A stretch of DNA of 64,000 bases, taken from a virus. A program made the translations under genes and the position numbers. Position 1 is the stretch's first letter; every line of letters starts with the position of its first letter. Under the pieces are notes generated by a model. It had not been told where the DNA came from. It was given only the letters and a program-made list of their open reading frames with translations, and did no database searches. The stretch spans positions 101,800 through 165,799 of IMG/VR virus record IMGVR_UViG_3300042402_003111. One strand, written 5' to 3'. Positions 16,742 to 50,191 of this stretch are shown here, one piece after another.

Positions 16742-16743
16742 CC

Positions 16744-20013: not shown

Positions 20014-20022
20014 GGGATAGAC

Positions 20023-21426
20023 ATGAAAAAAATTACGATCATAGCTGCTATGGCCTTGTGCTTTGCAGCACCGGCTGTTGCAGATGAATATAAAGACACA
20101 CTTGATATTCTACTACAAAAAGGTATTATTACTCAACAAGAGTACAACACAAAAATTGAAGCACACGCAGAGCGTTTAGAGAACAAACAGTTTAATGCTG
20201 CTCGTATTGATAAAGATTTGCGTGATAACAACAATTCAAGATTTACAAAGGCTAATGATGGGTCAGTCACTGAAAACGGAATCGGACTTAAAAGTAAAGA
20301 TGGCAACAATACCGTCCAACTTACAGGTAGACTACATATGGACTATCGTCAGTACTCCCCGGATTACGGTACAGGTCAAACCACGGATTCGTATCAAAAC
20401 ACCGCTGAAGCACGACGAGCCAGATTTGGAATAAGAGGACAGTTTGCCAAAGATTTCAAATATCAATTGTTAGCAAACTTTGGTGCAAGCGATGGTTTTA
20501 GTTCCACATCAAGTACAGCAGATGAAATGTGGGTTAACTGGGCTGCTAATCCTGAAATGCAATTTCAATTTGGTTTGTTTAAAATGCCTTTCAGTTTAGA
20601 ACAAATGACTAGTTCAAACAATCTAGATTTTATGGAGCGTAGTTTGATTGGTCAAAACGATAGCGAATTAATTCCTGCTAAAGAAACCGGATTCATGCTA
20701 CACGGTATTCCTAAACCTGGATTAACATACGCTCTAGCATTAAGCAGAGGCAAGAGTAATAAGAGTGCCGAGTTTGATGGCTTTGATTACATTGGTCGTA
20801 TAACCACAAACATTGCTGAACTAACCGGAAGCAAAGCATATACAGCACACTTAGGTGCTGCTTACAGTACAGGCGAAATTAAAAGTGGTGTTATTCCAGT
20901 AAGTGGCAGAACAGAGTCACGTATGCAGTCAGCATGGTTCACCGGGTCCGCCCTTAGCGATGCGACTACAAGAACACGACAGGGACTCGAAGCTGCATTT
21001 GCTTATAATGCTTTTAAGGTACAGGGCGAACAGTTCCAATTCAATTATGATCCAGCAACAGGCAACGATCAGAAAATAAATGGATACTATGTTCAAGCTG
21101 TGTACAACCTAACAGGAGAATCACACGCTTATAAAGATGGCGCATTTGGTTGGATCAAACCAAACAATCCCGTTGACAAAGGTGGTCGTGGTGCTTGGCA
21201 AGTGGGTGTGCGTATGAGTGAGTTTGATGCCAGCGACATATCAGTAGCAACAGGCAAATCTAATCGTGCTACTGCAATGACTTACGGTATCACTTGGTTC
21301 TGTACAGATAATCTACGTTTTATGTTAAATTATGTAGACACAAAGTTTGACAGTCTGGTAGGCAGTTCAGGTAGTCGTGTAAACGGTGACCGTGCTGTAA
21401 TGTTTAGAAGCCAACTTAGTTTTTAA
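20023..21426 (+). CDS. Phosphate-selective porin, OprO/OprP family
   Basis: A 467-residue protein with signal peptide (cleavage after AVA) and an N-terminal coiled-coil or periplasmic segment. A beta-barrel of the Porin_O_P type follows: GRLHMDYRQY, ARRARFGIRGQF, FGLFKMPFSLEQMTSS and repeated aromatic strands. It ends in Phe (RSQLSF), the BAM recognition signal, so it should insert in the outer membrane. It would raise phosphate influx for PstS. A porin for nutrient uptake encoded by a phage is unusual. Confidence 0.88.
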   Translation: MKKITIIAAMALCFAAPAVADEYKDTLDILLQKGIITQQEYNTKIEAHAERLENKQFNAARIDKDLRDNNNSRFTKANDGSVTENGIGLKSKDGNNTVQLTGRLHMDYRQYSPDYGTGQTTDSYQNTAEARRARFGIRGQFAKDFKYQLLANFGASDGFSSTSSTADEMWVNWAANPEMQFQFGLFKMPFSLEQMTSSNNLDFMERSLIGQNDSELIPAKETGFMLHGIPKPGLTYALALSRGKSNKSAEFDGFDYIGRITTNIAELTGSKAYTAHLGAAYSTGEIKSGVIPVSGRTESRMQSAWFTGSALSDATTRTRQGLEAAFAYNAFKVQGEQFQFNYDPATGNDQKINGYYVQAVYNLTGESHAYKDGAFGWIKPNNPVDKGGRGAWQVGVRMSEFDASDISVATGKSNRATAMTYGITWFCTDNLRFMLNYVDTKFDSLVGSSGSRVNGDRAVMFRSQLSF

Positions 21427-37108: not shown

Positions 37109-37678
37109 ATGAACAAGCCAAGTAAAAGTCCTGATCGTTATAGTTTTCAAAAATCTAAGTCCCTTGAAAGATGGGCTGAAAAAGGTCGCACTCCTGAAAA
37201 TGATGAACATGTCAAGACTATGCTAGAGTTTTATAATAGCTGGGGAATTCGAGCCGAGGAAAATGAAACAAATCCTGAGTGGCAAAAAAATAACTTAGAA
37301 TATGATCTGCGTACTTGCGATTGGATTTTGGAAAAAGTTCGCAATAAAGAACATTACGCTCAAAATTTATATGCAGCAATGTGTAATAATGAATTTCAAA
37401 AACGTGATTTGTGGCCAGTATTAAAAGAAGAGACATGGAGTGCTAGTTGGCGCTATGCTGGAGGCATCATTGCTGACATGCGTCAAGAAGGTGACTACAT
37501 TGACTGGTACTGTAGTGGCATGGGAGGGCTTGCAGGCAGTTGGGATAAAGATGAAGAGACTTTCTGCGAATGGGCTGCTCGTACTAAGTTTGTGTCTGAA
37601 GGCGTTGTCACTGAAGAAATTCGAGATGACTTACTTAAATTAGGATGGCTAGTTGTAGATGATAAAAATGACACATAA
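37109..37678 (+). CDS. Conserved phage protein of unknown function
   Basis: A 189-residue protein, acidic and Trp-rich (WILEKVRNKEHYAQNLYAAMCNNEF, SWRYAGGIIADMR). No signal peptide or TM. It overlaps the first desaturase of the island by 11 bases, so it may be part of that operon. Confidence 0.55.
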   Translation: MNKPSKSPDRYSFQKSKSLERWAEKGRTPENDEHVKTMLEFYNSWGIRAEENETNPEWQKNNLEYDLRTCDWILEKVRNKEHYAQNLYAAMCNNEFQKRDLWPVLKEETWSASWRYAGGIIADMRQEGDYIDWYCSGMGGLAGSWDKDEETFCEWAARTKFVSEGVVTEEIRDDLLKLGWLVVDDKNDT

Positions 37679-38417
37679 TCAAACTGTAAGAACACTACAA
37701 GTAATTAATCATGTAATTGCTACAATAGGTATAATATATGCTATCTACATTGCTGAATATAGTTTATTATTTGTGTCCTTAGTAACCTATTGGATCATAG
37801 GTGTACTTGGTATTAACATTGGTTACCATAGACTACTCAGTCATCGTAGTTTTAAAACACATCGATTCTGGGAGCAACTGTTTAGTCTTATAGGTGTTAT
37901 TACTGTGGTAGGTAGTCCATTAGCTTGGGTAGCTGTACATAGACAGCATCATAGATCAGCAGAACGTCCTGGAGATCCTCATAGTCCTTATATACTGGGA
38001 AATTTTCGAGCATGGTTCGGTATATGGAATATGCCTAGATTAGATTTAAAACTAGTTCGTGATATGCGTGAAAATGTCTTTCAACGAGAACTACACAAAA
38101 AATATTTGCTGGTAATTCTAATTTGGATATCAATTTTATTTGCTTATGATCCATTAATGATAATATATGTGTTTGCTATACCTGCTTGTCTTTGCTTACA
38201 CAGCACTAGTGCTATTATTGTTATAGCACATAGACATGGTTATAGACCTTATCCGGACGTCAAAGATCAAAGCCGTAATAGTTGGATTGCCAATCTTATC
38301 ACATTAGGAGAAGGGTGGCATAATACACATCACGCTAAACCATATGCTTGGAACAATCAAGAACGTTGGTGGGAGTTTGATATACCTGCTTACATTATTA
38401 GATTGATTAAACAATGA
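37668..38417 (+). CDS. Membrane fatty-acid desaturase 3
   Basis: A 249-residue protein starting at ATG 37668. Histidine boxes: HRLLSH near residue 54, HRQHHRSAE near residue 91 and HNTHH near residue 218, with hydrophobic segments around them. It overlaps desaturase 4 by four bases and the upstream gene by 11. It belongs to the stearoyl-CoA desaturase-like family; chain position is unknown. Confidence 0.9.
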   Translation: MTHNQTVRTLQVINHVIATIGIIYAIYIAEYSLLFVSLVTYWIIGVLGINIGYHRLLSHRSFKTHRFWEQLFSLIGVITVVGSPLAWVAVHRQHHRSAERPGDPHSPYILGNFRAWFGIWNMPRLDLKLVRDMRENVFQRELHKKYLLVILIWISILFAYDPLMIIYVFAIPACLCLHSTSAIIVIAHRHGYRPYPDVKDQSRNSWIANLITLGEGWHNTHHAKPYAWNNQERWWEFDIPAYIIRLIKQ

Positions 38418-39193
38418 AAAAATATGGATTTAACTTTTGGGTAGTATTTCTACCTTTTCATATATGGGGACTAATTGCTATATGGGAACTACCTAATCAT
38501 TGGATCAGTTTCTTAGTAATTTGGTTTGTCATTGGTGTAGTAGGCAATGGTGTAGCAGCACATAGATATTTTGCTCATGGTCAGTTCGAAACCTATAAAC
38601 CTGTAAAATGGCTATTAGGATTTTTATCTACTTTAGGCGCTATTGGTCCAGTGACATTTTGGGTCATACAGCATAAAGCTCATCATCTTAGAGCAGATAA
38701 AGTTAACGATCCTCATAGTCCAATGTATAACAGTTGGTTCTACGTATTCTATGCTTGGACATTTCCTCAGGGAAATAACGAACAAGAATATTTACAAGAC
38801 AAGTATGCTAAAAAATTAGCTGTACAGATGTTGCGTGACCCGTTTTATCTTTTCTTTCATAGACATCATTATAAAATAATTTTTACATTTTGTTTTACAC
38901 TTGTTTTGATTGATCCGGTGTACTTCATGATGTACTGTTTGGCCTACTGTGTGGATTTTTTTAGACTAGGTGCAGTTAACTATTGGTGTCATAGATCAGG
39001 TTATAGAAATTTTTCTACAGACGATGCAACTACGAATAATTTATGGTTAGGTTGGTTAGGTATGGGGTTCGGATGGCACAATAATCATCATGCTCATCCT
39101 GGACGATTGATACTTCAACATCGTTGGTGGGAAATAGATATAGAGGGTTATATAGGATTTCTCTTAAGTAAAAGATTTAGTAAAAAACTTTAA
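38414..39193 (+). CDS. Membrane fatty-acid desaturase 4
   Basis: A 259-residue protein with boxes HRYFAH near residue 54, HKAHHLRAD near residue 92 and HNNHH near residue 226. Overlaps desaturase 3 by four bases and converges on the UbiB-like gene, overlapping by 30 bases. It has a longer insertion before box 3 than desaturase 3, suggesting different substrate. Confidence 0.9.
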   Translation: MKKYGFNFWVVFLPFHIWGLIAIWELPNHWISFLVIWFVIGVVGNGVAAHRYFAHGQFETYKPVKWLLGFLSTLGAIGPVTFWVIQHKAHHLRADKVNDPHSPMYNSWFYVFYAWTFPQGNNEQEYLQDKYAKKLAVQMLRDPFYLFFHRHHYKIIFTFCFTLVLIDPVYFMMYCLAYCVDFFRLGAVNYWCHRSGYRNFSTDDATTNNLWLGWLGMGFGWHNNHHAHPGRLILQHRWWEIDIEGYIGFLLSKRFSKKL

Positions 39194-40462
39194 AAGAACC
39201 GGCTCTGCTATACTTTGAATATTTAGATCAGGTGTTAGTTGCTTTACTATACCTTCAGTTACTAAAATTGTTTTTACCAATAATGTAAATTGATAAGGCA
39301 CATTGCCTTGATAATTTTCTACTAAATTGAAAAATTTATTTAATACATTACCAATTGAAAAATCTTTTTGTTTTCGATTAACAAATAGCTGTGCTATATC
39401 AATTAAATCGACTTCTAATTGGTCTAAGTTTTGATTTTTGTTTAACCATCCGGCATCTATTAATTTTTCAATCGTTTTTTTATTATTTTTAGAATATAAA
39501 AAGAAAAGAATTTGCAATAATGATTTTCTATCTGCCTCTGTAATAGACCCAACTATTCCAAAATCTAAATAAATTCGAGATCCATCAGGTTTAATCCATA
39601 AGTTTCCGGGATGTTGATCTGCATGAAAAAATCCGTCTCGGAATAGTTGTAACATCATTACTTCGACACCTTGTTGAACTACTATCCTAACATCAACACC
39701 TTGATCAATAAGTTGTTGTTTTTGATCAATAGGAATTCCAAACATTCTTTCCATCACTAAAATAGTTTTTGTACTATATTTGTCATATACTTTAGGAACA
39801 CATACATATGAAACATGTTTCATATTAGATGCAAACTTTTTCATATGATCAGATTCTATCAATAAATCTAGTTCTAACATTAAACTATTTGATAACTCAT
39901 CTAAAATTTTTTCTATCTTAATTTTTTTTAAATTTTTATTATACAAAAAAATTAATTGTAAAATATTTCTAAATAACTTTATGTCTTTTTTAATAATACA
40001 TTCTATTTTAGGCCTTAATATTTTAACCGCAACTAACTCACCAGTGTGTAGTTCAGCATAATGAACTTGCGCTACACTACCCGCAGCAATAGGAGATTTA
40101 TCAAACTTTTTAAATATGTTTTCTGTAGAGTTTTTTAATTCTAATTCTATTATTTTTTCTACATCATGTTCAGAAAAAGGCTTTACTGACTCTCTAAGAA
40201 ATTTTAATTCTTTAACAATACTTGCAGGAATTAAATCAGGTCTAGATGATAACATTTGTCCAAATTTGATAAAAACTGGTCCTAGTTCCTCTAGCGCACA
40301 ACGTAATCGATATTCAAAAGTTCCGTGCGGAGTTGTTATGCCGAATAGATTCTTAAAAGAAAGTTTTGCGATTGAAAGTAATTTGAAATTTGAATTTTGA
40401 AATAGATGTTCCTCAAGATTATATTTTACAATAACTTGAAGAACATCGATAATTCTTAACAT
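39164..40462 (-). CDS. UbiB/ABC1-type atypical kinase
   Basis: A 432-residue protein with UbiB hallmarks: IKFGQMLSSRPDLIP (KxGQ) near residue 65, AAGSVAQVH (Ala-rich nucleotide loop) near residue 125, HADQHPGNL near residue 275 and LDFGIVG near residue 293. It ends in helical segments that may sit at the membrane. UbiB proteins support ubiquinone biosynthesis by ATP-dependent lipid handling. A phage copy is rare. It lies beside desaturases and oxygenases, suggesting a role in lipid or quinone metabolism. Confidence 0.88.
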   Translation of the reverse strand: MLRIIDVLQVIVKYNLEEHLFQNSNFKLLSIAKLSFKNLFGITTPHGTFEYRLRCALEELGPVFIKFGQMLSSRPDLIPASIVKELKFLRESVKPFSEHDVEKIIELELKNSTENIFKKFDKSPIAAGSVAQVHYAELHTGELVAVKILRPKIECIIKKDIKLFRNILQLIFLYNKNLKKIKIEKILDELSNSLMLELDLLIESDHMKKFASNMKHVSYVCVPKVYDKYSTKTILVMERMFGIPIDQKQQLIDQGVDVRIVVQQGVEVMMLQLFRDGFFHADQHPGNLWIKPDGSRIYLDFGIVGSITEADRKSLLQILFFLYSKNNKKTIEKLIDAGWLNKNQNLDQLEVDLIDIAQLFVNRKQKDFSIGNVLNKFFNLVENYQGNVPYQFTLLVKTILVTEGIVKQLTPDLNIQSIAEPVLLKFFTKSFT

Positions 40463-40465
40463 CTA

Positions 40466-40861
40466 TTAAATTTTGCTTATAAAATTTTTCAAAGGTTGAG
40501 CATGATTGCCTAACACTTCTAATTGAGCATTATCTACATCAGAAAAGAATCTTTCGAATATTAGTCCTTCAGTTTCTAACTCATCGATACATTCTTTATA
40601 TAACTCTTCTGAAATTTCTCCAAATGTTTTAAACCAGTCGTTATATGTTTCCAAAGAATTATGATCAGCGTGAAACTCGGCATACGATTTATCTTCACTT
40701 AAATTAACTGTAACATTGTCGATATAATTAGATGGATGAGGATGACAGTAATATAATTGGTGCCATGCAACAGATGTCTCTAAAGTTTTTATCACATTAA
40801 TTTCGCCATCGATATCAGGAGCAGTTTGTGTTACTGTCAGTATTTTTATAAATTTTTCCAT
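40466..40861 (-). CDS. Hypothetical protein (131 aa), possibly ABM-like
   Basis: A 131-residue acidic protein with a DxxxxE-rich helical half and an N-terminal beta strand (FIKILTVTQTAPD). The size and pattern allow a dimeric alpha/beta-barrel like antibiotic-biosynthesis-monooxygenase proteins, but no motif is decisive. AAGGAA precedes the ATG. It is in an operon with 40872 and UbiB on the minus strand. Confidence 0.45.
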   Translation of the reverse strand: MEKFIKILTVTQTAPDIDGEINVIKTLETSVAWHQLYYCHPHPSNYIDNVTVNLSEDKSYAEFHADHNSLETYNDWFKTFGEISEELYKECIDELETEGLIFERFFSDVDNAQLEVLGNHAQPLKNFISKI

Positions 40862-40871
40862 ATCATATTCC

Positions 40872-41204
40872 TTAAATTTCTAAAGGTTTAATTGTTTCAC
40901 CGAGACTGTCTGTTATAGTCAAATCAATATCATGCTTTAACGCCTCCATTTCGAATCGAGACCAGAACATTTTTCGCATAGGATGTTGCATAGCTTTTTC
41001 CCAATCTGACTTTGATTCCCATACAGTGGTAATTTCCCAACGTTCGTTATCATAGTGATCATCACGTGCTTCAACAAACCCTTGAAATTTAACATTGTAA
41101 TTTTTCATTAATTGATTGAATTTTAACCCCTGTGTAGTGACTATTCGAAATCGATCCATTTTAGGTTGACCTTGACATACTAACTTATAACTTCTTATAT
41201 ACAT
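40872..41204 (-). CDS. ABM-like dimeric alpha/beta-barrel protein 1
   Basis: A 110-residue protein with an arrangement typical of ABM-fold monooxygenases: RFRIVTTQGLKFNQ, RWEITTVWESKSDWEKAMQHP and a C-terminal helix. Such proteins can oxidise quinone-like or polyketide substrates without cofactor, or serve as structural subunits. No catalytic residue can be assigned. It starts the minus-strand operon that leads to UbiB. Confidence 0.5.
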   Translation of the reverse strand: MYIRSYKLVCQGQPKMDRFRIVTTQGLKFNQLMKNYNVKFQGFVEARDDHYDNERWEITTVWESKSDWEKAMQHPMRKMFWSRFEMEALKHDIDLTITDSLGETIKPLEI

Positions 41205-41255
41205 ACATTTTCCTAATTAAATTATTTTTTTTTTGAACATGATAAGTAAGTTATC

Positions 41256-41852
41256 ATGTTTAATATTAAAATTTTACAAAAAGAAGACCAAAGTATTTTA
41301 AAAAATTTATTTGTTAAAAACCCTCAAGTATTTAACGGATATACCGATCATCAGTATCAAGACTACTTAATACAGTCTACAGAAACAATGTTAAACGATA
41401 AGTTATTTTTTAATGTTGGAATATTTAACAAAAATAATCTAGTAGGGGCAATAATCTTGAAAGAATTTTCTACGGCACCGGCATGGTGTTGGGCACACCA
41501 TTTATTCGAAAATAGAGGATTTTTAATTAATAATACTGAAATGATCGACATGTTTAAAGACATTGATCAAATTATTTTCGACGAAATGGAAAATAAAAGA
41601 AAATTAAATAGATGGCATTTTGCTTATAATGCAGAACACTTGGGTGTACGTTCGATTGGAGGAATAGATAGACTTCTTAGATTTTCTAAAAATTTCAAAA
41701 AAGATTATAATTTATCTAAATATCACTATATAACTGAACATGTATTAGAGTCGAATTCTATTCCAAAATATGATTATCAAAAAAATATGATATTAAATAG
41801 GTCGTGGCCTATAAGAATTGGATTCCGAACAGCGTTTAAAATTGAAGATTAA
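41256..41852 (+). CDS. Unknown protein, possibly GNAT-like
   Basis: A 198-residue protein starting MFNIKILQKEDQS, with an alpha/beta pattern that could be an acetyl- or acyl-transferase fold, although no GNAT R/Q-x-x-G motif is clear. It shares features with the product at 48602 in the same island (WHFAYNAEHLG vs FVSRQYNHWQ). It is divergent from the ABM-like gene. Function unknown. Confidence 0.45.
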   Translation: MFNIKILQKEDQSILKNLFVKNPQVFNGYTDHQYQDYLIQSTETMLNDKLFFNVGIFNKNNLVGAIILKEFSTAPAWCWAHHLFENRGFLINNTEMIDMFKDIDQIIFDEMENKRKLNRWHFAYNAEHLGVRSIGGIDRLLRFSKNFKKDYNLSKYHYITEHVLESNSIPKYDYQKNMILNRSWPIRIGFRTAFKIED

Positions 41853-41861
41853 AGGAAAATT

Positions 41862-42185
41862 ATGTTTAGCAGAACTGCAATTTTAAAGTCAAGAGATGCA
41901 TCAGATAAAGAACGGTTATTGAATTTCATACGAGATATACGTTCACATTCGATGTATGAACCTTATCTAAATGCATTGTATATAGTTCCTGGATTTATAA
42001 GAAAGGAAACTAAATTTGTCGAACAACCTCAAGGAACAATATTATATAGTTCTGTAATTTTTGAAAGTAAAGAAGAATTTAATAATTTTTACTCTAAGGA
42101 GGAGAACGAATTTATTTGGAATTACTTTGAAATTATAACGAATCAATACGGAATTGATTTTGCTTTGGAAGATAGCGAAATTTAA
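41862..42185 (+). CDS. ABM-like dimeric alpha/beta-barrel protein 2
   Basis: A 107-residue protein with a pattern like 40872 (SRTAILKSRDAS, ILYSSVIFESKEEFNNFYS). It ends by overlapping the convergent oxygenase gene by four bases. It probably shares the ABM fold; role unknown. AAAGGAAA precedes the ATG. Confidence 0.45.
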   Translation: MFSRTAILKSRDASDKERLLNFIRDIRSHSMYEPYLNALYIVPGFIRKETKFVEQPQGTILYSSVIFESKEEFNNFYSKEENEFIWNYFEIITNQYGIDFALEDSEI

Positions 42186-42721
42186 TCGTCCAATAATAAT
42201 CCTACATCAGGAATTGTTGAAACAGTAAGTGTAATTCTAGGAAAACTTTTATCATTCATTACTACGGTATGTCCTTCACTTATTCTGACAATAGTAGGAC
42301 GATCTATTTCAACTCCGCCAACTTCTTCGTAATCTTTGTTTATAGTCATATAAAATGGAGACCTAGTAGGCAACATTAATCTTTTAGATTTTAAATTTTT
42401 ATAAAATATGGTTTTAGATCCTTGACAATTTAATATAGGGATATTCACTCTACCAATGGCATCTGTATAATCTTTATGGGGAATACAATCGGTGTTATTC
42501 CACATTAAAAATATATGAATACCAGTGACATACAACCCATAATTTAAAAAACTTTCTTGAAGCTCTGGAACATCCTTATTGTAATCGAAAAAGGGCAAAT
42601 TAATATATGGACCTTTATATTTAGATTTATCCATAAAATCTGTTTTTTCTCGAATAAACGTTAAAGTTTTTTCTTGAATCTTTTCTACATTATCTAATTC
42701 TAAATATTTCCAGTATTCCAT
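42182..42721 (-). CDS. Putative 2OG/Fe(II) oxygenase 7
   Basis: A 179-residue protein. CIPHKDYTDAIGRVNIPI gives His-x-Asp near residue 81, RISEGHTVVMNDKSFPRITL gives distal His near residue 150 and Arg. It is the last of three adjacent minus-strand oxygenases. It is one base from its upstream neighbour. Substrate unknown. Confidence 0.65.
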   Translation of the reverse strand: MEYWKYLELDNVEKIQEKTLTFIREKTDFMDKSKYKGPYINLPFFDYNKDVPELQESFLNYGLYVTGIHIFLMWNNTDCIPHKDYTDAIGRVNIPILNCQGSKTIFYKNLKSKRLMLPTRSPFYMTINKDYEEVGGVEIDRPTIVRISEGHTVVMNDKSFPRITLTVSTIPDVGLLLDD

Positions 42722-42722
42722 T

Positions 42723-43592
42723 TTATCCGTATTTTTTTAAACTTGTACTTAGCAAATTATCTAACTTTGCTGTATCCCATATCGCGTTAACAACTATTTG
42801 AAAATTCTTTTTTCCGTGATAATCACCCCCGTATAATTTAGTTCCATTACTCCAACAAAAACTGTTTGTATCTTGAGGTAGATCTATATATCTCGTTTCA
42901 CCGCTTTCGATATCCGTTACGTAAAATACAGGGGTTTTATTTTCATCATAAAGATTTATTCTAAATTCAGTAGGACATTTCCAGTACCAAGTTTCCTCCC
43001 TATGAGGTGCTACATCATTCATAACTTCGAATATAGATATAGTATTAATAACACTAATAGGAAAAGTTGCCATAATATTACTAACTAAAGAATTAAAAAA
43101 TCTATCTTTATAAAGTTTTTTAGTGTATAAACCTATATTGTCTCTTCCTTGAGTAAATCCGCTTTTTTCCGAAATTTGATTTTCTATCATCTTACCTTTT
43201 GAATCGTACAAATCATGACAGTAAAAGTCAATTAATGGGTTAGATGCAATATGCATTCCGTAAAATTCTTGAATAAAATCTGGATCGTTTTTTTTAACAA
43301 TAGGTATTTTTTCTCTTTCCCAAATTTCTAAAAAAAGTTTCCAATCGCTTATTTGAATTTTAGGTATATCTAAAGGTAACCAAAAAATAGATTCATATTT
43401 TTCTTCTAATAACTTTATTTTTTTTAGATAAGATTCAGAAATAGGTATCTCGGGTGACCATGAAGCCTGAATAAAACTTGCATTTTTATGCAAGGAAGGA
43501 CCTAGTTTTGTGTAACTAGTGTTTAATTTTGAATAATCAAATTGAGAGACTTTCGCCTCTTCAATTTTTTTTTGTAAGATACTTAGATCCAT
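42723..43592 (-). CDS. 2OG-oxygenase-like protein 8, HxE variant
   Basis: A 289-residue protein closely related to its neighbour at 43592: shared WLPLDIPKI, YWKCPTEFR, LYDENKTP, DTNSFCWSNG and DYHGKKN. Where the partner has PHRDAAS it has PHREETW, so the His-x-Asp is His-x-Glu. Glu is tolerated in some 2OG enzymes. The tandem pair arose by duplication. Substrate unknown. Confidence 0.65.
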   Translation of the reverse strand: MDLSILQKKIEEAKVSQFDYSKLNTSYTKLGPSLHKNASFIQASWSPEIPISESYLKKIKLLEEKYESIFWLPLDIPKIQISDWKLFLEIWEREKIPIVKKNDPDFIQEFYGMHIASNPLIDFYCHDLYDSKGKMIENQISEKSGFTQGRDNIGLYTKKLYKDRFFNSLVSNIMATFPISVINTISIFEVMNDVAPHREETWYWKCPTEFRINLYDENKTPVFYVTDIESGETRYIDLPQDTNSFCWSNGTKLYGGDYHGKKNFQIVVNAIWDTAKLDNLLSTSLKKYG

Positions 43593-44425
43593 TACATTTC
43601 TAATTTATAATTTAATTTGTCTTTATACTTTGCAATACTGCGATCAAACAACTCTACAGATTTTCTTGTATGCTGTATTCCTGTCATAATTAGTAGTAAT
43701 TTTCTTTTTCCATGATAATCAGATCCATGAACCATTTTTCCATTGCTCCAACAAAAAGTATTAGTATCCTCAGGAAGGTCAATATAGATTGGTTCATCTG
43801 ATCCGTCTTCTGCTACATACAAAGTAGGTTTATCATTTTCATCATATAACATAGATCTAAAATCTGTAGGACATTTCCAATATGATGCGGCATCCCTATG
43901 AGGAATAATAGTCGATAAACTTTCCCAGATGAATATACTGATAAAAGGGTGATGAGGAATATAATCATGCACTTGTTCAATAATCCTTTTGAAAACAGGA
44001 ATATCTCCAAGATAAACTTTTCCGTAAAAGGTACTTAGCTTAAGATCAATCATAGGATTTTGATATAGATGAAGACCATTAAATGCTGCTTTATTCCAGC
44101 TACTATCTTGCTTAAAAGGATGATCTTCCTTACTCCATGGTTCTGCTACATCAGGTTTAATTCTTACAACAGGATAACGTTGACTATCGTAAATTTCTAA
44201 AAATTCTTTAGGATCGCCTATATCAATTTTAGGTATATCCAACGGTAGCCATTGTATGGGTTTATACTTTTCACTGATAACTTTCATTTTTTCAATGTAT
44301 TCGGTAGGTAAGTCGTAACCAGCCGGAGGTCCGTCTGTCATAAAACTTGATCCATCGATTTTTTCCATTTTCAACCGCAACAAATGTCTCGGGTCAGTAT
44401 TTGTATCTGAAGTATGATTGTACAT
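43592..44425 (-). CDS. 2OG-oxygenase-like protein 9
   Basis: A 277-residue protein. IIPHRDAASYWKCPTDFR gives the His-x-Asp near residue 169, and MVHGSDYHGKRK gives the distal His region near residue 245. It overlaps the next gene by one base (stop/ATG). With 42723 it forms a duplicated pair just downstream of the ketosynthase. Substrate unknown. Confidence 0.65.
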   Translation of the reverse strand: MYNHTSDTNTDPRHLLRLKMEKIDGSSFMTDGPPAGYDLPTEYIEKMKVISEKYKPIQWLPLDIPKIDIGDPKEFLEIYDSQRYPVVRIKPDVAEPWSKEDHPFKQDSSWNKAAFNGLHLYQNPMIDLKLSTFYGKVYLGDIPVFKRIIEQVHDYIPHHPFISIFIWESLSTIIPHRDAASYWKCPTDFRSMLYDENDKPTLYVAEDGSDEPIYIDLPEDTNTFCWSNGKMVHGSDYHGKRKLLLIMTGIQHTRKSVELFDRSIAKYKDKLNYKLEM

Positions 44426-44435
44426 ATATTGAAAC

Positions 44436-45614
44436 CTAAATTGTTTGAAATACTGCTATAGCAGTTCTGCCCCCAAACCCAAAAGAAGCTTTAATAAATG
44501 TATCTCCTTTGATAGGAATCGCTTTTGTAATTAATCTAGGATCGTCGCTTATTGGATCTGTTAAATCGTAGTTTGGATGCAGATACTGATTTTTTAATGC
44601 TTCTAATCCGTAAGCAGATTCAACCATACCACTTGCACTCATAGTGTGGCCGATATAACCTTTAAAACTAACACACGGAATATCAACGTCTTTAAATTTT
44701 TGCTGAAAAACGTCTAATTCAATATCGTCTCCTATCAAAGTACTAGTAGCATGTGCATTAAAAAAAGCTATATCTTCCGATTTTTTATTTGCAATAGTTA
44801 GTGCTTTATTAATTGTATCAATTTGACTCTTTCCTGTTTTATCGTGAGCAGTCATAGTAGCAGTATCATAGCATTTAGAAGACAGCACTATAGAAAGAAT
44901 TTTAGCTTTAGGAGTTAAATTATATTTTTTCAATGTTTCTTCATCGCATATTAACCATAATGTTCCTCCCTCGGCTTGAACAAACCCATCTCTGTTCTTA
45001 TCAAATGGTTTACAGATTCCTCCATCTCGAGTAGAAATTGCACTAGTACATTGCCAGTAATATTGCACAGAAGGATGTATTGGAGTTTCTATAGCTCCAA
45101 CTACAGCGGACGAAATCACTCCTGATTGTATGCAAGTGAAAGCATAGTGTAAGTTGAACATACTAGAACTACACGCTGCCATTACCCCAGAGCTGAATCC
45201 TTCTAATTTTAATTTTTTCGCTATGTTAGCACTCATTAAATCATTATTATTTAGAAAAAGCTTTGTAGGACTAAATCGGCTCATTCCGCCTCGGAATGAG
45301 TTATCAAAATCATTTCTTACTTCGTTGCCTGAATGAGCAAACGCACTCACTATTACGGCAGAATCTGATGGAATAGTAGCTTTCGATAATAACTGATCAG
45401 ATAAATCGTTATGCAACTTTGAAAAAATATTACGTCCATCATACTGAGAAATTTCATAACCTTTAGTACAGAGTATGTGAGGATACTCTGTTACATCGTA
45501 TCTAGTGCAGGTCTGAGGACCTTTAGCTAATAGAGTAAGATTTTTATAGTTCGATTCTATATCAAATCCTATTGTATCTATTACTGCATAATCAACTATA
45601 TAAACAGGTTTCAT
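44436..45614 (-). CDS. Beta-ketoacyl-ACP synthase (KAS I/II type)
   Basis: A 392-residue protein with the catalytic Cys148 in GVMAACSSSMF, His288 in NAHATSTLIGD and His323 in GYIGHTMSASG, plus Lys318 and a C-terminal FGFGG. That is the Cys-His-His triad of elongating ketosynthases (not the Cys-His-Asn KAS III type). It condenses malonyl-ACP with an acyl chain. Its start overlaps the ACP gene by four bases, so the two are co-translated. It is shorter than FabF, especially near the N-terminus. Confidence 0.93.
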   Translation of the reverse strand: MKPVYIVDYAVIDTIGFDIESNYKNLTLLAKGPQTCTRYDVTEYPHILCTKGYEISQYDGRNIFSKLHNDLSDQLLSKATIPSDSAVIVSAFAHSGNEVRNDFDNSFRGGMSRFSPTKLFLNNNDLMSANIAKKLKLEGFSSGVMAACSSSMFNLHYAFTCIQSGVISSAVVGAIETPIHPSVQYYWQCTSAISTRDGGICKPFDKNRDGFVQAEGGTLWLICDEETLKKYNLTPKAKILSIVLSSKCYDTATMTAHDKTGKSQIDTINKALTIANKKSEDIAFFNAHATSTLIGDDIELDVFQQKFKDVDIPCVSFKGYIGHTMSASGMVESAYGLEALKNQYLHPNYDLTDPISDDPRLITKAIPIKGDTFIKASFGFGGRTAIAVFQTI

Positions 45615-45979
45615 TTTTGTTTCATTTTTTTAGGGTCTTGACTATCTGCTATATAACCAATAAGATCTTCCCATCTAAGTAGAGTGGCCACATCTTTATC
45701 GTCAATTACTACGCCAAATTCTTCTTCGATCTGAATTACTAATTCCAATATATCTATGCTATCGATTTCAAAATTCTTTTTTATAATTTCTAATGATTCT
45801 TCATCAACATCTTGTAATTGTTCAATAACTTTCGTATCCCCAACTAATCTCAAATCTTTTAAAGAAAGATTTGGATCTACAGGATATTCTAAATTTAATT
45901 TTAGATAGTCATTAATCATTCCAATAAATTTCTTTTCTATTTCTTGCGTAGTCAATGGTGTCCAATTTTCTAAATCCAT
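45611..45979 (-). CDS. Acyl carrier protein, extended N-terminus
   Basis: A 122-residue protein. The ACP core covers about residues 60-115: FEIDSIDILELVIQIEEEFGV, where Ser in DSI is the expected phosphopantetheine site. The N-terminal 55 residues are extra for an ACP and may dock a partner enzyme. AGGAGG precedes the ATG and the gene is coupled to the ketosynthase. Confidence 0.85.
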   Translation of the reverse strand: MDLENWTPLTTQEIEKKFIGMINDYLKLNLEYPVDPNLSLKDLRLVGDTKVIEQLQDVDEESLEIIKKNFEIDSIDILELVIQIEEEFGVVIDDKDVATLLRWEDLIGYIADSQDPKKMKQK

Positions 45980-46005
45980 ACGTCCTCCTATATAGCTATT
46001 TAATA

Positions 46006-46464
46006 TTAAATACCAGCAGTGGCTTTTAACTTGGCCGAAGCAACTATAATCCTATCAACTTCTATTCTAGTTTCAAATTCAAATAAAGTTCTAGCACATC
46101 TAGTCAATTTAGAAAATATTTTTAATTGATCTCCAGGATGCACAACTCGTTTAAATCTCACTTCATCAGCAGCTACAAACAAAAATCCTCCAGAAAATTG
46201 TGACAAAATTTGTTCCATAGTTGCATTCTTTTCTATGTACTTGAACCCTAAAATTGTGCTGGCTTGTGCCATAGATTCTACCATCATTACACCTGGCATT
46301 ATATGATTGTTTGGAAAATGTCCTTGTACATATGGCTCATTGATTGTGAAATTTTTCACTGCTATTAGATCTGTGTCGGAGTATTCGATAACTTTATCAA
46401 TCATCAGAAATGGATAACGATGAGGCAATATTGAAAGAACTTCTTGGTTAGTTAATTGATTCAT
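46006..46464 (-). CDS. fabZ: 3-hydroxyacyl-ACP dehydratase FabZ
   Basis: A 152-residue protein with FabZ signatures: LPHRYPFLMIDKV near residue 14, YVQGHFPNNHIMPGVMMVESMAQ near residue 45 (catalytic His52 area and Glu), and later FKRVVHPGDQL. It dehydrates beta-hydroxyacyl-ACP. It lies between ACP and the PP-loop gene. It supplies a C=C that a ketosynthase could extend. No ketoreductase or enoyl reductase is seen in the window. Confidence 0.93.
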   Translation of the reverse strand: MNQLTNQEVLSILPHRYPFLMIDKVIEYSDTDLIAVKNFTINEPYVQGHFPNNHIMPGVMMVESMAQASTILGFKYIEKNATMEQILSQFSGGFLFVAADEVRFKRVVHPGDQLKIFSKLTRCARTLFEFETRIEVDRIIVASAKLKATAGI

Positions 46465-46467
46465 ATA

Positions 46468-47376
46468 TTAAGAATTTGAAGGACATACTGAAAAAGCTTT
46501 AGAAGATTTTCCCGAACTGAGTTTTTCTACTACAGTATGATACTGATGGTCGCTAGTTCCGCCCCAGCGATCTTTCCAACTAATCACAGTTTGAATGTCA
46601 GGATGATTAAAAATCAAACTTTTTTCAGCATTTTCATATCCGTGTTGTTTAACACGTTGTTCTAAATTAAAATTGCTGTCTCTATTAAACACATGAACTT
46701 TAGTACTGTTAGTTCCTAATTTACCTGGAAATCCATGATTAGCTAATTTTTCCATAGTCGGATCTAATAAAAAACTTAACATTAATTCAGGAGTATAGCT
46801 TAACAGAAAAGGTGTTCCAAGTATATCTCGATTTCTCCAAAAATTAAATTGACTATGAATAACTTCCTCTTCATCGAGATACCAAAGATTATCTTCTTTG
46901 TTTAACTTCATATGTGGAGGATCATTACCAATTATAACTGTACCTGTTAATTGTTCCACTAGCCACATATTAGCAGGTATTTGCCACTGTGCGCAACACA
47001 TGGATTCTGCTATTTCTATTAGTTTACCAGATTCTACAAATTTATCATAATCTAGATCAACTATGGTAGGAGTAATGTTCTTTGATTCACAAAATTTAAA
47101 TGCATATTTGGTTTCATGATAATTGTATTGAGTATTCATAATGAATACTTCTACTGGTATGCCTAAGTATAATAACGTACTTAGAACATATTCACTATCA
47201 AGGCCTCCACTATAACATAGTTGTAAAGGAGCAGTTCTTTGCTCATATATTAACCCACAAGCAATTTTAGTTTCTTCGAAATAACTTTTAACTGATCTAG
47301 TAGGAGGGTCTATTTCTACTGACCAAGTTGACCCATTTCCTGAACTACGCATGTAATCATTATACAACAATTTCAT
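46468..47376 (-). CDS. PP-loop ATP pyrophosphatase (asparagine-synthetase-like)
   Basis: A 302-residue protein with the PP-loop LCYSGGLDSEYVL near residue 52, then helical segments and a C-terminal part unlike known families. N-type ATP pyrophosphatases adenylate carboxyl or other groups, then transfer ammonia, sulfur or an amine. In this acyl-ACP island it could amidate or activate a fatty-acyl or amino-acid group. Overlaps the Rieske gene by four bases. Confidence 0.7.
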   Translation of the reverse strand: MKLLYNDYMRSSGNGSTWSVEIDPPTRSVKSYFEETKIACGLIYEQRTAPLQLCYSGGLDSEYVLSTLLYLGIPVEVFIMNTQYNYHETKYAFKFCESKNITPTIVDLDYDKFVESGKLIEIAESMCCAQWQIPANMWLVEQLTGTVIIGNDPPHMKLNKEDNLWYLDEEEVIHSQFNFWRNRDILGTPFLLSYTPELMLSFLLDPTMEKLANHGFPGKLGTNSTKVHVFNRDSNFNLEQRVKQHGYENAEKSLIFNHPDIQTVISWKDRWGGTSDHQYHTVVEKLSSGKSSKAFSVCPSNS

Positions 47377-48182
47377 TTTTTACTTAACCACTCTCTGTAA
47401 TGAATTTTGGCTTCTTCTAAATTAGCAGAAGGAAATCTTACCATTTGCTCTGCTTGAGCTTTATCTTGTGAAAATGCATTTTCCCACATACTTTCATTAG
47501 TTCTATAGTTTTCTTCTGACTCGGTTATATCTTTATATTTCCATACTGCCATTTGTGTTTCATTGAAAGACCGTGTTATAAACAATGCTTTATCTTGCCA
47601 CTCTATCATAGTATAAGGATAGATAGCGATCCAACGAGCAATAACTTTTCCCGATTCGTCACTAACAGTCTGCATACTTCCCCAGTCTGCATAACTCCAT
47701 TTAACATCTGCTTTACCTTCGATTCCTAATAAATCATAGACTCCGTTATGAACGATTGGAATATGATCGACGTCTAAAAATATATCCATACTAATTTTTG
47801 GATCAGCATTAACCGTATCGATTCTAAATTCTTCTAATCTTAAATTTTCAAAACTTAATTCTTCGAGCATTGAAAAATCTAATTCTTCTTCGAATAAAAG
47901 ACCTTTATATTCATACGCTGTTTTCATATGTAATTTTTGCTTATTACACATAGTACTAGCACCTGAATCTTTAGGTGATCCATCCATATTCCACGACCAT
48001 CCGTGGTACTGGCATCTAAGTTCTGTACGTGTTCCGGAAATAATTCTGCTATTTTGATGAGGGCAAATATTACTACCTATTTTGTATACACCATTTTCAT
48101 TGATTAAAACTTTTTTGTTTTCAAGAACTTCAATCGATTTGGCTTGGCCGATTTCTAAGTCGTTAATGTGTCCTATAAACAT
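47373..48182 (-). CDS. Rieske oxygenase (terminal component-like)
   Basis: A 269-residue protein. The Rieske cluster ligands are Cys40, His42 (CPH), Cys57 and His60 (CQYHGW). The mononuclear iron site is visible as DVDHIPIVHNG (His140, His145). It hydroxylates or desaturates a substrate with O2 and electrons from a ferredoxin. Shorter than ring-hydroxylating subunits, similar to single-component Rieske enzymes. It is the first gene of the minus-strand block. Confidence 0.85.
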   Translation of the reverse strand: MFIGHINDLEIGQAKSIEVLENKKVLINENGVYKIGSNICPHQNSRIISGTRTELRCQYHGWSWNMDGSPKDSGASTMCNKQKLHMKTAYEYKGLLFEEELDFSMLEELSFENLRLEEFRIDTVNADPKISMDIFLDVDHIPIVHNGVYDLLGIEGKADVKWSYADWGSMQTVSDESGKVIARWIAIYPYTMIEWQDKALFITRSFNETQMAVWKYKDITESEENYRTNESMWENAFSQDKAQAEQMVRFPSANLEEAKIHYREWLSKK

Positions 48183-48210
48183 AATATCCTCCGGTGTATT
48201 TACCAGGCTA

Positions 48211-48239
48211 TTGACACACAGATTTAAAAAAAGTATAAT
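48211..48239 (+). promoter_or_regulatory. Strong promoter of acpS, leaderless
   Basis: TTGACA at 48211, 17-base spacer, TATAAT at 48234. The ATG begins at 48246, only 6 bases after the -10, so the mRNA is expected to start at or near the ATG. Confidence 0.8.
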
Positions 48240-48245
48240 TACTGT

Positions 48246-48605
48246 ATGATATTAGGACACGGAATTGATATTGTAGATTTAAATCGTTTTCATATGATGA
48301 ACGATCTACGACTAACTAAAATTGCAATGCGTATTTGCACAGATGAAGAATTAGAAGAATTCAAAAACCACAAATTAAAATTTCAATATTTGGCTAAAAT
48401 ATGGGCAGGAAAAGAAGCCATTGCCAAGGCTTTTGGAAAAGGAATACGAGATAAAGTAACTTGGAAAAATATTAAAATTAAATCCAATCACGAAGGTCGT
48501 CCAACAGTACAGTTTAAAGAACAATTAGCAGGACCAACTTGTCATCTTAGTTTTAGTCACGAACGAGACTATCTCATAGCCAGTGCTATTTTGGAAGTAA
48601 CATGA
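48246..48605 (+). CDS. acpS: Holo-[acyl-carrier-protein] synthase
   Basis: A 119-residue protein with AcpS motifs: GHGIDIVDLNRF at the start (metal-binding Asp8 area), WAGKEAIAKAFGKGI near residue 55 (Glu, Lys), and LSFSHERDYLIA near residue 102. It attaches phosphopantetheine to the ACP serine. It lets the phage activate its own ACPs. Its promoter sits so close that translation would be leaderless. Divergent from the Rieske gene; overlaps the next gene by four bases. Confidence 0.93.
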   Translation: MILGHGIDIVDLNRFHMMNDLRLTKIAMRICTDEELEEFKNHKLKFQYLAKIWAGKEAIAKAFGKGIRDKVTWKNIKIKSNHEGRPTVQFKEQLAGPTCHLSFSHERDYLIASAILEVT

Positions 48606-49144
48606 TTAGTGTTAAAATTTGGACTCCGGGATCCGACTCGTACTTAGACAAACTTTTCGAAAATTTAAGACAACATCAGCACAATAACAAAACAGATCCA
48701 TTAGCAGTAAATTACAACAAGTATCTTTTTGAAAGATCAGCAGCTTTTAGTATAGCGTTCGACGAAAATGGAGACCCTACTCATTGTAGCAGTATTATAC
48801 GAAGAGATTGCTGGCCAGATAGAGTTTATAGAATTTTGAATAGAATGTGGAAAATAAAGAGAATTCCCATTACTAAATTTGTCAGTCCTCAAATCTGTTT
48901 AATGGTGTCAGAACAAGTTAAATGGTTACAAAATAACACTGATTCAAAATTAGTATTTGTAAGCAGACAATACAACCATTGGCAAAGTATGCTAATAAGA
49001 GATTTTAAAAAATATTCTGACTTGACGTTTGATACCAACAACTATAAATATCAAACTTGCCCAAATAGTGATGATGATAGTTGTTGGCAACATATCATAT
49101 ATCACGGCGACGACTCTTTATTGAATTCCTGGAAACACAAATGA
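48602..49144 (+). CDS. Unknown protein, possibly GNAT-like acyltransferase
   Basis: A 180-residue protein between AcpS and a desaturase, overlapping both by four bases. Alpha/beta layout with Trp- and Arg-rich segments (IWTPGSDSY, FVSRQYNHWQ). No catalytic motif is certain. In this setting an acyltransferase that unloads the ACP is plausible but unproven. Confidence 0.5.
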   Translation: MISVKIWTPGSDSYLDKLFENLRQHQHNNKTDPLAVNYNKYLFERSAAFSIAFDENGDPTHCSSIIRRDCWPDRVYRILNRMWKIKRIPITKFVSPQICLMVSEQVKWLQNNTDSKLVFVSRQYNHWQSMLIRDFKKYSDLTFDTNNYKYQTCPNSDDDSCWQHIIYHGDDSLLNSWKHK

Positions 49145-49926
49145 AACAAATTTTTAAAAACATTATATCATTTAGTAATCTTTGGTGTGGTGTGATTCCT
49201 ATCCATATTTTAGGATTATACAGCATTTATAATCTGTTTGTAGATTATACTCCTTATTGGTGGGCATACTATATTATTGGTTTCATTTGTATTAAAATTA
49301 TTGGAGTAAGCGCCGGCTATCATAGATTGTTCAGTCACAAAAGTTTTAAAGTAAAAAGATGGGTAAAGATAATAATTCTTTGGTTTGGAAATTTATCAGG
49401 ACAAGGTAGTCCTATTCAATGGGCCACAATACACAGAAGTTATCATCATAGATATAGTGATGAAGATAAAGATCCTCACAGCCCTCATCATGGGTTTTGG
49501 CACAGTTATATCTGGTGGATGTTTAAACTAAAGGAAGGACAATATAATACAAAGCATATTGTAGATTTGCTTAAAGACAAAGATTGTATTTTCTTTCATA
49601 AAAATTACGCTAAAATCTTTTTAATCAGTCATGCCGCTTTTTTATTAATTGATATAAATCTTTGGTTATATGCTGTAATACTACCTGCATTCATTACCTA
49701 TCAAGTTTTTAATATACAAACAAGTGTGACTCACATTAAGAAACTAGGTTATAGAAATCTCGAAACTAAAGACGACAGTGTAAATATTGTTTGGATTTGG
49801 CCTATTACGTTAGGGGAAAGTTGGCACAATAATCATCACGGAGATCCTACAAACATCAACTATGGAAAGCGTTGGTGGGAAATAGACCCGACTTATTGGG
49901 TGATAAAATTACTTAAGACTGATTAA
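49141..49926 (+). CDS. Membrane fatty-acid desaturase 5
   Basis: A 261-residue protein starting at ATG 49141 (an ATG at 49081 lies in the previous gene). Histidine boxes: HRLFSH near residue 59, HRSYHHRYSDED near residue 98, and HNNHHGDPT near residue 224. Hydrophobic segments surround them. It converges on ACP 2, overlapping by 18 bases. Family: stearoyl-type desaturase. Confidence 0.92.
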   Translation: MKQIFKNIISFSNLWCGVIPIHILGLYSIYNLFVDYTPYWWAYYIIGFICIKIIGVSAGYHRLFSHKSFKVKRWVKIIILWFGNLSGQGSPIQWATIHRSYHHRYSDEDKDPHSPHHGFWHSYIWWMFKLKEGQYNTKHIVDLLKDKDCIFFHKNYAKIFLISHAAFLLIDINLWLYAVILPAFITYQVFNIQTSVTHIKKLGYRNLETKDDSVNIVWIWPITLGESWHNNHHGDPTNINYGKRWWEIDPTYWVIKLLKTD

Positions 49927-50157
49927 TTTTGAGATAACTTCATTGATATCATTTAATGTATTAAGCTTTGGTAACTCTGGATCATCTAAGTCCACTTCGA
50001 TTTCAAACTGTTCTTCTAACGATATCAACAATTCTGTAAAGCTTAAACTGTCCAAATTTAAATCTTCTTTAAGAGTTGAATGCATAGTGATAGATTGGTC
50101 TTTACCGATCTTCATATCTTTAATTGTTTGTAAAATTTGCTGCTCTATGTTATTCAT
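49909..50157 (-). CDS. acpP: Acyl carrier protein 2
   Basis: An 82-residue protein from ATG 50157 (TTG 50169 is in frame). LKEDLNLDSLSFTELLISLEEQFEIEVD holds the DSL phosphopantetheine serine near residue 37. Standard ACP length, unlike the extended ACP at 45611. It should be activated by AcpS. Two carriers in one island suggest two chains or two docking partners. Divergent from the AbrB-like gene. Confidence 0.9.
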   Translation of the reverse strand: MNNIEQQILQTIKDMKIGKDQSITMHSTLKEDLNLDSLSFTELLISLEEQFEIEVDLDDPELPKLNTLNDINEVISKLISLK

Positions 50158-50163
50158 TTTAAT

Positions 50164-50191
50164 TGACAAAAAATATAATTATACTTATACT
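50164..50191 (+). promoter_or_regulatory. Promoter of the AbrB-like/IF-1 operon
   Basis: TTGACA at 50164, 16-base spacer, TATACT at 50186, ATG at 50215. Confidence 0.6.

Follow-up and report, generated by a model that had tools for sequence, protein, structure and literature searches.

In the window analysed here (64,000 nucleotides of the IMG/VR virus record IMGVR_UViG_3300042402_003111, positions 101,800 to 165,799), a compact set of genes for acyl-carrier-based biosynthesis was found (Table 1). It comprises a ketosynthase (KAS), two acyl carrier proteins (ACP1 and ACP2), a FabZ-type dehydratase, a holo-ACP synthase (AcpS) and a number of oxidative and transfer enzymes. A first-pass annotation of the sequence had already noticed an island of this kind, and all the open reading frames (ORFs) it named are present, with KAS, FabZ, the Rieske protein, AcpS, the desaturase and both ACPs above Pfam cut-offs. 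The extent of 8 kb given there proved too small and the gene list incomplete. The island covers about 12.5 kb (37659-50169, i.e. about 37.7-50.2 kb), and two desaturases, a UbiB/ABC1 kinase-ATPase, two GNAT-type and two ABM-type proteins were added to the earlier list. The close packing of genes on the minus strand was confirmed: eight genes follow one another from 48182 down to 42182, separated by gaps of -4 to 26 bp, and AcpS, u180 and des3 lie on the opposite (plus) strand with 4-bp overlaps. The GC content of the island is 31.5%, as against 36.3% in the rest of the window, and falls below the minimum of 33.6% observed among 107 overlapping windows of the same size outside the island.

The carrier is a jumbo phage. 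The window aligns over its whole length, at about 100% identity, with a 364,554-bp IMG/VR contig. The terminase of this contig shares 56% identity with its counterpart in Pseudomonas phage PA5oct and 44-50% with those of Phosso, Atu_ph07, GAP32, CBB and PBECO4. All these phages are large (286-490 kb) and are members of the T4 superfamily. The window encodes 24 tRNAs. Since it matches a contig with a phage terminase and since the core of the island is kept in seven other viral contigs, origin from a contaminant or chimera was rejected.

Table 1. Genes and signals of the island: coordinates in the 64-kb window and basis of assignment
Feature	Coordinates	Strand	Basis
des1, fatty-acid desaturase	37659..38417	+	Pfam, relatives
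des2, fatty-acid desaturase	38414..39193	+	Pfam, relatives
UbiB/ABC1-type kinase-ATPase	39164..40462	-	Pfam, TIGR01982
u131, small protein	40466..40861	-	alignment only
abmA, ABM dimeric alpha+beta-barrel (predicted), cofactorless monooxygenase/polyketide cyclase type	40872..41204	-	AlphaFold model, Foldseek, VIA
gnat198, possible GNAT	41256..41852	+	weak GNAT profile matches, alignment
abmB, probable ABM-type barrel	41862..42185	+	hhalign to abmA
og179, 2-oxoglutarate (2OG)-oxygenase-like	42182..42721	-	alignment motif HxD...H...R
og289, paralogue of og277	42723..43592	-	alignment
og277, 2OG-oxygenase-like	43592..44425	-	alignment motif HRD...H
KAS, divergent FabF-lineage ketosynthase	44436..45614	-	Pfam, NCBIfam, residues, tree, 8 viral contigs
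ACP1, acyl carrier protein with N-terminal extension	45611..45979	-	Pfam, phrog_5934, residues
FabZ-type 3-hydroxyacyl-ACP dehydratase	46006..46464	-	Pfam, NCBIfam NF000582, residues
PPL, PP-loop (SGGLDS) ATPase	46468..47376	-	motif, remote NAD+ synthetase match
Rieske non-haem oxygenase	47373..48182	-	Pfam, PDB match, motifs
Sigma-70-type promoter match TTGACA-17-TATAAT	48211..48239	+	exact pattern
AcpS, holo-ACP synthase	48246..48605	+	Pfam, TIGR00516, residues
u180, GNAT-fold acyltransferase (predicted)	48602..49144	+	AlphaFold model, Foldseek, VIA
des3, membrane fatty-acid desaturase, three His boxes	49141..49926	+	Pfam, motifs
ACP2, second acyl carrier protein	49909..50157	-	Pfam, phrog_5934, residues

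A KAS model built from three contigs detected five further ones, giving eight with the window phage included: 3300042350_002797, 3300042691_024053 (L024), 3300015244_001137 (L035), 3300020172_002521 (L126), 3300010885_039266 (L127), 3300020183_005424 (L122), 3300046804_004121 (L124) and 3300005758_001464 (L125). As the gene counts refer to stretches of roughly 20 kb, absences are soft. AcpS, u180, FabZ, ACP1, KAS, abmA, abmB, gnat198 and a gene of the og277/og289 family are present in all eight contigs; of this family, L035 has just the og289-like type. ACP2, des2 and des3 were each found in six (des3 of L024 being only 34% identical), the Rieske gene in four, and UbiB also in four (the window phage, L035, L122 and L124). 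Two contigs, L024 and L125, have a ketoreductase-like short-chain dehydrogenase/reductase (SDR) and a radical SAM gene inside the island; both SDRs and the radical SAM protein of L024 are supported by Pfam. Thus, the tailoring genes vary between relatives and the core is constant. Protein identities to the window range from about 20 to 90% and gene order is broadly kept, apart from inversion of the og genes in L035 and exchanged positions of AcpS and u180 in L122 and L124. The gene set that the first-pass annotation proposed to look for in related phages is therefore there as far as the core is concerned, and because this core recurs in broadly the same order in seven other contigs, its grouping is not due to chance. 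This evidence is independent of the co-occurrence of abmA, the number of desaturases and the alternation of UbiB. A scan with the abmA model, derived from the eight contigs, returned the same eight, a recovery given by construction, and no viral contig devoid of KAS. The four contigs in which no UbiB was detected encode a protein of about 380-400 residues without assigned family (L024 17968-19167, L125 15354-16490, L126 16107-17303, L127 17530-18729). The two are not strict alternatives, as L122 has UbiB along with a distant match to the latter protein (22%, E 4.7e-8).

The core displays the features of a type II fatty acid synthase, namely a KAS with Cys-His-His and Lys residues, an ACP serine together with a dedicated AcpS, and a 3-hydroxyacyl-ACP dehydratase. 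KAS lies above the Pfam cut-offs (PF00109, 1.9e-20; PF02801, 1.8e-19) and reaches no family cut-off of NCBIfam (fabF, 158 vs. 494); judged from its sequence, it is therefore a divergent KAS of the FabF lineage. Its Cys148, His288, Lys318 and His323 are invariant in the eight contigs, as is the attachment Ser of ACP1 (within DSIDILEL). Both ACPs exceed the Pfam cut-off (PF00550, ACP1 24.5 bits vs. 20.8; ACP2 28.8 bits), match phrog_5934 of PHROGs and score below the cut-offs of every NCBIfam family listed. FabZ passes the FabA/FabZ cut-off of Pfam (3.2e-24) as well as that of NCBIfam NF000582 (146.4 vs. 113), with matches to 4HBT models staying below cut-off, and AcpS passes those of Pfam (6.6e-20) and TIGR00516 (86 vs. 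59.8). Every copy examined retains the His and Glu of FabZ (L035, with LMEAMAQ, was read by eye), the Asp and Glu of AcpS and the ACP serines. No catalytic residue of KAS, FabZ or AcpS has been lost, the kind of loss that the first-pass annotation regarded as fatal to its proposal.

As for the oxidative genes, the Rieske protein (Pfam 6.2e-12) has both the cluster motif (C-x-H / CQYHGW) and DxxHxPxxH. Membrane desaturases are represented by des3 (2.9e-16, three His boxes), des1 and des2, all above the Pfam cut-off, and the 364.6-kb contig has six desaturase matches in total, five of them above cut-off. Another overlapping pair of desaturase genes is located at 8829-10351 of the window. Of the three genes annotated earlier as 2OG-oxygenase-like, og179 has the appropriate motif, HxD...H...R, invariant in 8/8 aligned members from five contigs, one of which weakly matches Asp_Arg_Hydrox (0.0076). 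Alignment by eye revealed HRD plus a later His in og277 and HRE without the later His in og289. None of the three gave a convincing Pfam match, and the grouping of og277 and og179 into one family was unsupported in comparison. The PP-loop enzyme reported previously has the SGGLDS motif, with a weak profile match to an NH3-dependent NAD+ synthetase (3p52, E 0.0035). The UbiB-like protein (Pfam 8.7e-72; TIGR01982 414.7 vs. 487.6) was the only one of ten island proteins to match in PADLOC (PD-T4-6 4.5e-7, mad6 1.4e-4). We read these matches as generic kinase similarity, beyond which no known anti-phage defence system was matched by the ten proteins. Cispentacin AmcF/AmcB/AmcE appeared in the NCBIfam list far below cut-off and were rejected.

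Two small proteins of the conserved set were assigned from predicted structures. The AlphaFold model of u180 (pLDDT 93.8) has a predicted GNAT fold: Foldseek placed GNATs at the top (AAC(6')-Ib, E 5.7e-6; phage Mu Mom at rank 49), and in VIA the top GNAT scored Z 12.0, as against 10.5 for FeeM (2g0b) and 10.3 for LasI and TofI. These VIA scores are nearly tied across FeeM/LuxI proteins and many acetyltransferases, and u180 has no sequence match to the FeeM/LuxI acyl-ACP N-acyltransferases; hence these scores support the fold but not a use of acyl-ACP in particular. On weak profile evidence (GNAT structures, best E 0.032), gnat198 is a possible GNAT; its union with u180 into one family was unsupported. 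For abmA (pLDDT 88.9), Foldseek filled its first ten rows with ABM or dimeric ferredoxin-like proteins, led by RslO4, a Deinococcus ABM protein and SnoaB, with a best E of 6.7e-5. VIA added ActVA-Orf6, WhiE-ORFI and OAC, its best Z being 8.5 (2.9 A over 91 residues). These models point to an ABM barrel fold. Identity of abmA to known ABM proteins is about 8-14%, and a search of PDB sequences with its profile placed a single ABM chain (E 1.6) behind rows of ribonuclease H. From its alignment with abmA (hhalign probability 83, E 8.8e-6), abmB is probably a remote homologue with an ABM-type barrel. Similar-sized ORFs with little sequence likeness occupy the place of u131 in the relatives, no tblastn match at 1e-4 was obtained for it in the seven relatives, and its assignment to ABM proteins was unsupported by comparison.

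Coding sequences of the island are under purifying selection. Between L126 and L127, the closest pair, the ratio of nonsynonymous to synonymous substitutions (dN/dS) was 0.044 for KAS, 0.026 for ACP1, 0.023 for FabZ, 0.045 for PPL, 0.018 for abmA, 0.074 for gnat198, 0.131 for AcpS, 0.237 for u180 and 0.13 for des3. These ratios are rough, as og277 is saturated in this pair, and between L122 and L124 most synonymous distances are saturated as well. In L126 and L127, u180 and des3 share 51-52% identity, far less than KAS (93.9%), which suggests that the u180-des3 segment was exchanged.

We did not find a cellular parent cluster in the bacterial genomes searched, and the core recurs in seven related viral contigs. 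In a tree with 69 of the 80 best bacterial KAS (11 were dropped, their extracted length being outside 331-479 aa), the eight phage KAS group together as a single clade (100/100), whose branch is so long that its placement among bacterial KAS is not to be trusted. The best 80 bacterial KAS loci among the matches listed encode proteins 24-33% identical to the phage KAS. Their flanks (up to 10 kb, often less) contained ACP1 matches in 9, ACP2 in 14 and FabZ in 7 cases, and no match to og277, abmA, abmB, u180, gnat198, PPL, Rieske, AcpS, desaturase or UbiB. A pattern scan of 84,980 species with the og277 profile gave 67 matches, none of them a relative, bearing in mind that short patterns can miss relatives. 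The abmA model had no match in 398 Pseudomonadota, a sample that can miss relatives (it matched all eight KAS records, from which it was built, and none of three others). Three matches of the PPL profile in the same 398 genomes (64-87 positions, E 8.6e-6 to 1.3e-4) were read as the generic PP-loop part; in 18 other genomes, where there was no positive control, PPL had none. A sequence search of 50,697 phage records returned 27 matches for KAS, 24 for FabZ (15 listed), 7 for AcpS, 2 for Rieske (E 6e-3) and none for PPL and og277, with identities of 22-43% among the matches listed. H9, the one record opened, proved to be bacterial, its contig carrying rpsL, rpsG and fusA, and the remaining ones might likewise be bacterial contaminants. 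No KAS, FabZ, AcpS or Rieske family was found in PHROGs at E<=0.001.

The island is thus conserved, under purifying selection and intact in its active sites, and the interpretation given by the first-pass annotation is supported in part, namely as to an acyl-carrier island. Together with the overlapping genes, the dedicated AcpS behind a perfect promoter match, and a KAS and two ACPs that score below housekeeping cut-offs, this makes it fairly probable, in our view, that it represents a discrete, phage-borne, type-II-like acyl-ACP cluster for a specialised, desaturated and oxidised acyl product rather than for bulk fatty acid. From this, we infer the following order of reactions. AcpS would load phosphopantetheine on ACP1 and ACP2, and KAS would join malonyl units from host FabD to a starter by condensation. 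Enoyl-ACP would then result from the action of a ketoreductase (the island SDR in two relatives, otherwise host FabG) and FabZ. The membrane desaturases would add unsaturation, and the Rieske, 2OG and ABM-fold enzymes would oxidise or cyclise the chain. Finally, the PP-loop ATPase and the u180 GNAT would activate the acyl group and transfer it to an amine, so that an acyl amide or acyl-amino acid is formed; this amide-forming step is tentative and less likely than not, and any role in infection is likewise conjectural.

The reductases deserve a comment here. A ketoreductase and an enoyl reductase were originally said to be missing. This stands for the window phage, in which no PF13561 reductase was detected at E<=0.01 (other enoyl reductase families were not searched), but, as to the ketoreductase, not for two of the relatives: at the same threshold, PF13561 matched in 1/10 records (L125), and the SDR of L024 scored 24.6 vs. 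the PF13561 cut-off of 27, yet above that of PF00106. Because of these SDRs, the lack of a ketoreductase may reflect this phage, with supply by its host, and not the pathway.

Several observations weigh against this reading, the gap in the reductases of the window phage among them. Malonyl-CoA:ACP transacylase (PF00698) and AMP-binding ligase (PF00501) were both found in 0/8 KAS records, seven of which are fragments, with control matches in 10/14 and 12/14, respectively. PPL is present in seven contigs, is only 37-38% identical in L122 and L124, and was not seen in L125; by its motif and remote match, it is a putative PP-loop ATPase. Judged by its motif, og277 would be 2OG-oxygenase-like, whereas the activity of og289 is doubtful because of HRE and the missing later His, and L035 has this latter type only. 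The predicted GNAT fold of u180 is not specific to acyl-ACP N-acyltransferases, and the argument for the fold of abmA comes mainly from Foldseek because VIA scores (Z up to 8.5, modest by the tool's own note; 19/998 chains at Z>=8) are near the level of common arrangements. Scattering of the genes in relatives, against which the earlier proposal was to be judged, was not observed for the core, which is clustered in all eight KAS contigs, although PPL, Rieske, u180 and desaturase genes exist without KAS in other phages, and some of them may serve another pathway.

Known systems resemble the island in parts. FeeM-type clusters have a GNAT-fold acyltransferase beside an ACP and a phosphopantetheinyl transferase. 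The island likewise has a GNAT-fold protein beside these two partners; the likeness is one of fold, tied with other GNATs and without sequence match. The predicted fold of abmA, near a ketosynthase and ACP, recalls SnoaB, ActVA-Orf6, RslO4 and OAC cyclase, but identity is 8-14% and, since one KAS per record was found in the three searched, there is no second KAS to act as chain-length factor. Coccolithoviruses are eukaryotic algal viruses, and their lipid pathway is based on serine palmitoyltransferase, not on ACP and KAS. Their sphingolipid pathway does share with the island the presence of a multi-step lipid pathway in a virus (reviewed in PMC5371807). Bacterial alkyne/polyyne clusters, as described in the accessible part of PMC8406139, combine an ACP with at least three membrane desaturases, a combination which des1, des2, des3, ACP1 and ACP2 reproduce above cut-offs. 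They also contain a fatty acyl-AMP ligase, which was absent from the eight records mentioned above, and the island adds KAS, FabZ, AcpS, Rieske, 2OG-like, ABM and GNAT genes. Lacking the ligase, it is not a polyyne cluster by that gene set. Neither is it a complete fatty acid synthase, as it has no PF13561 reductase in the window phage and no PF00698 in the eight records.

The closest phage precedent consists of three roseobacter prophages with acpP-fabF-fabG (PMC8224337, accessible part), where ACP and KAS are carried together as here. In that part of the paper, the order is the plain, host-like one, no AcpS, FabZ or tailoring genes are named beside them, and prophage fab genes and cyanophage desaturases are suggested to alter host lipid. 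The terms acyl carrier, ketoacyl, desaturase, Rieske, PP-loop and ATP pyrophosphatase are all absent from the main text of a review on jumbo phages (PMC7824862). The earlier statement that no phage system like this is known therefore fails for parts of the island. It stands for the whole set in the literature searched, to which subscription papers mostly did not belong.

The prophage precedent (again as given in the accessible part of PMC8224337) is one reason to ask whether the genes rather alter or boost the fatty acid and phospholipid make-up of the host, i.e. chain length and unsaturation, during infection. The three desaturases of the island, the further matches in the phage and a FabZ above the cut-off of a housekeeping family would suit this explanation. 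However, a dedicated AcpS, two ACPs below housekeeping cut-offs and a KAS far from the bacterial ones found do not, and ABM, Rieske, 2OG and GNAT tailoring genes would be out of place in bulk lipid synthesis; moreover, abmA occurs wherever KAS does (8/8). We regard such membrane metabolism as unlikely. Slightly less likely still is that the GNATs put the acyl product on a phage macromolecule, be it virion protein, surface glycan, phage DNA or tRNA. The presence of u180 and possible GNAT gnat198 in all eight contigs, Mom in the fold list of u180, the tRNAs of the phage and genes read by eye as glycosyltransferases next to the island in L126 and L127 are compatible with it, but no acceptor was identified, the tailoring oxygenases are many for a simple acyl mark, and GNATs are common and versatile.

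That independent cargo genes merely accumulated in a region rich in morons, unconnected by any pathway, we hold to be very improbable. The AT-richness of the region relative to the 107 windows, the neighbours differing between phages and the local swaps and inversions could be cited for it, whereas the clustering of one core set in eight contigs, its order largely kept, the company of abmA and KAS, and purifying selection all contradict it. A further step, which is speculative and rather doubtful, would be that this jumbo phage lineage has a self-contained, phage-evolved natural-product cluster that is swapped whole between phage genomes. Its diffusible acyl product would have a role beyond ordinary metabolism, against competitors or superinfecting phages or as a signal, and this would amount to a secondary metabolism native to phages and without cellular counterpart. 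Descriptions of phage metabolic genes usually concern single, host-like enzymes. A conserved multi-enzyme acyl-ACP cluster with its own carriers, carrier activation and tailoring oxygenases would imply that phages make specialised metabolites of their own, and would open up a source of natural products missed by searches of bacterial genomes.

Parts of the gene set are more widespread among phages. A search with the PP-loop protein yielded 12 other viral contigs, and one with its profile 20, near copies included. PPL lies beside desaturases in L025 and L027-L034, including contigs of 352 kb and 524.6 kb, joined by radical SAM in L034 and by Rieske and further PP-loop relatives in L030. KAS and ACP were found in 3/28 records searched (three of the eight KAS contigs) and in neither the 352-kb nor the 524.6-kb record. 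In L129-L131, Rieske, PPL, u180, gnat198 and des2 occur without KAS in the stretch examined. Judging from such sets, oxidative genes may form the more widespread unit, to which the acyl module was added. In L132 (5095-10873), five PP-loop paralogue matches follow in a row, a Rieske gene among them, beside u180 and a desaturase, possibly a family expansion, and a QueC-like PP-loop protein (by eye) lies near the island of L125 (19215-19829). Two radical SAM genes at 15308-18228 of the window are 28-37% identical to the radical SAM proteins that L024 and L125 have within their islands. In the window phage, the pathway may extend in part beyond the island.

The surroundings of the island differ as well. 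In L125, it adjoins nrdB, glutaredoxin, PAAR, hydrolase and iscU genes (named by eye), most of which are kept beside the PPL cluster in L025, L030, L033 and L034. In the window phage, by contrast, nrdB, glutaredoxin, iscU and hesB are located at a distance from the island (L018), which adjoins ClpP and phosphoesterase genes (likewise named by eye), as in L024, L035 and L122. The unit has therefore moved between sites, or its surroundings were rearranged.

With respect to expression, ten exact TTGACA-N16-18-TATAAT matches were found in the window vs. 0.17 expected, all on the plus strand and none on the minus strand. One of them ends 6 bp before the ATG of AcpS, and the same arrangement precedes AcpS in L126 and L127 but not in the other five relatives. 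This suggests transcription by host RNA polymerase and an AcpS message with little or no leader. T4-type late promoters (TATAAATA) gave no signal (5 found vs. 11.7 expected). Elsewhere in the phage, ORFs read by eye as KdsA, a carbamoyltransferase and sugar-nucleotide enzymes (pieces L004-L022 of the 364.6-kb contig) suggest surface-glycan genes and a Gram-negative host. Genes for Hsp70 (E 1.1e-257), a PstS-like binding protein and an OprP/OprO-type porin were noted at 5544-7421 and 18988-21426 of the window.

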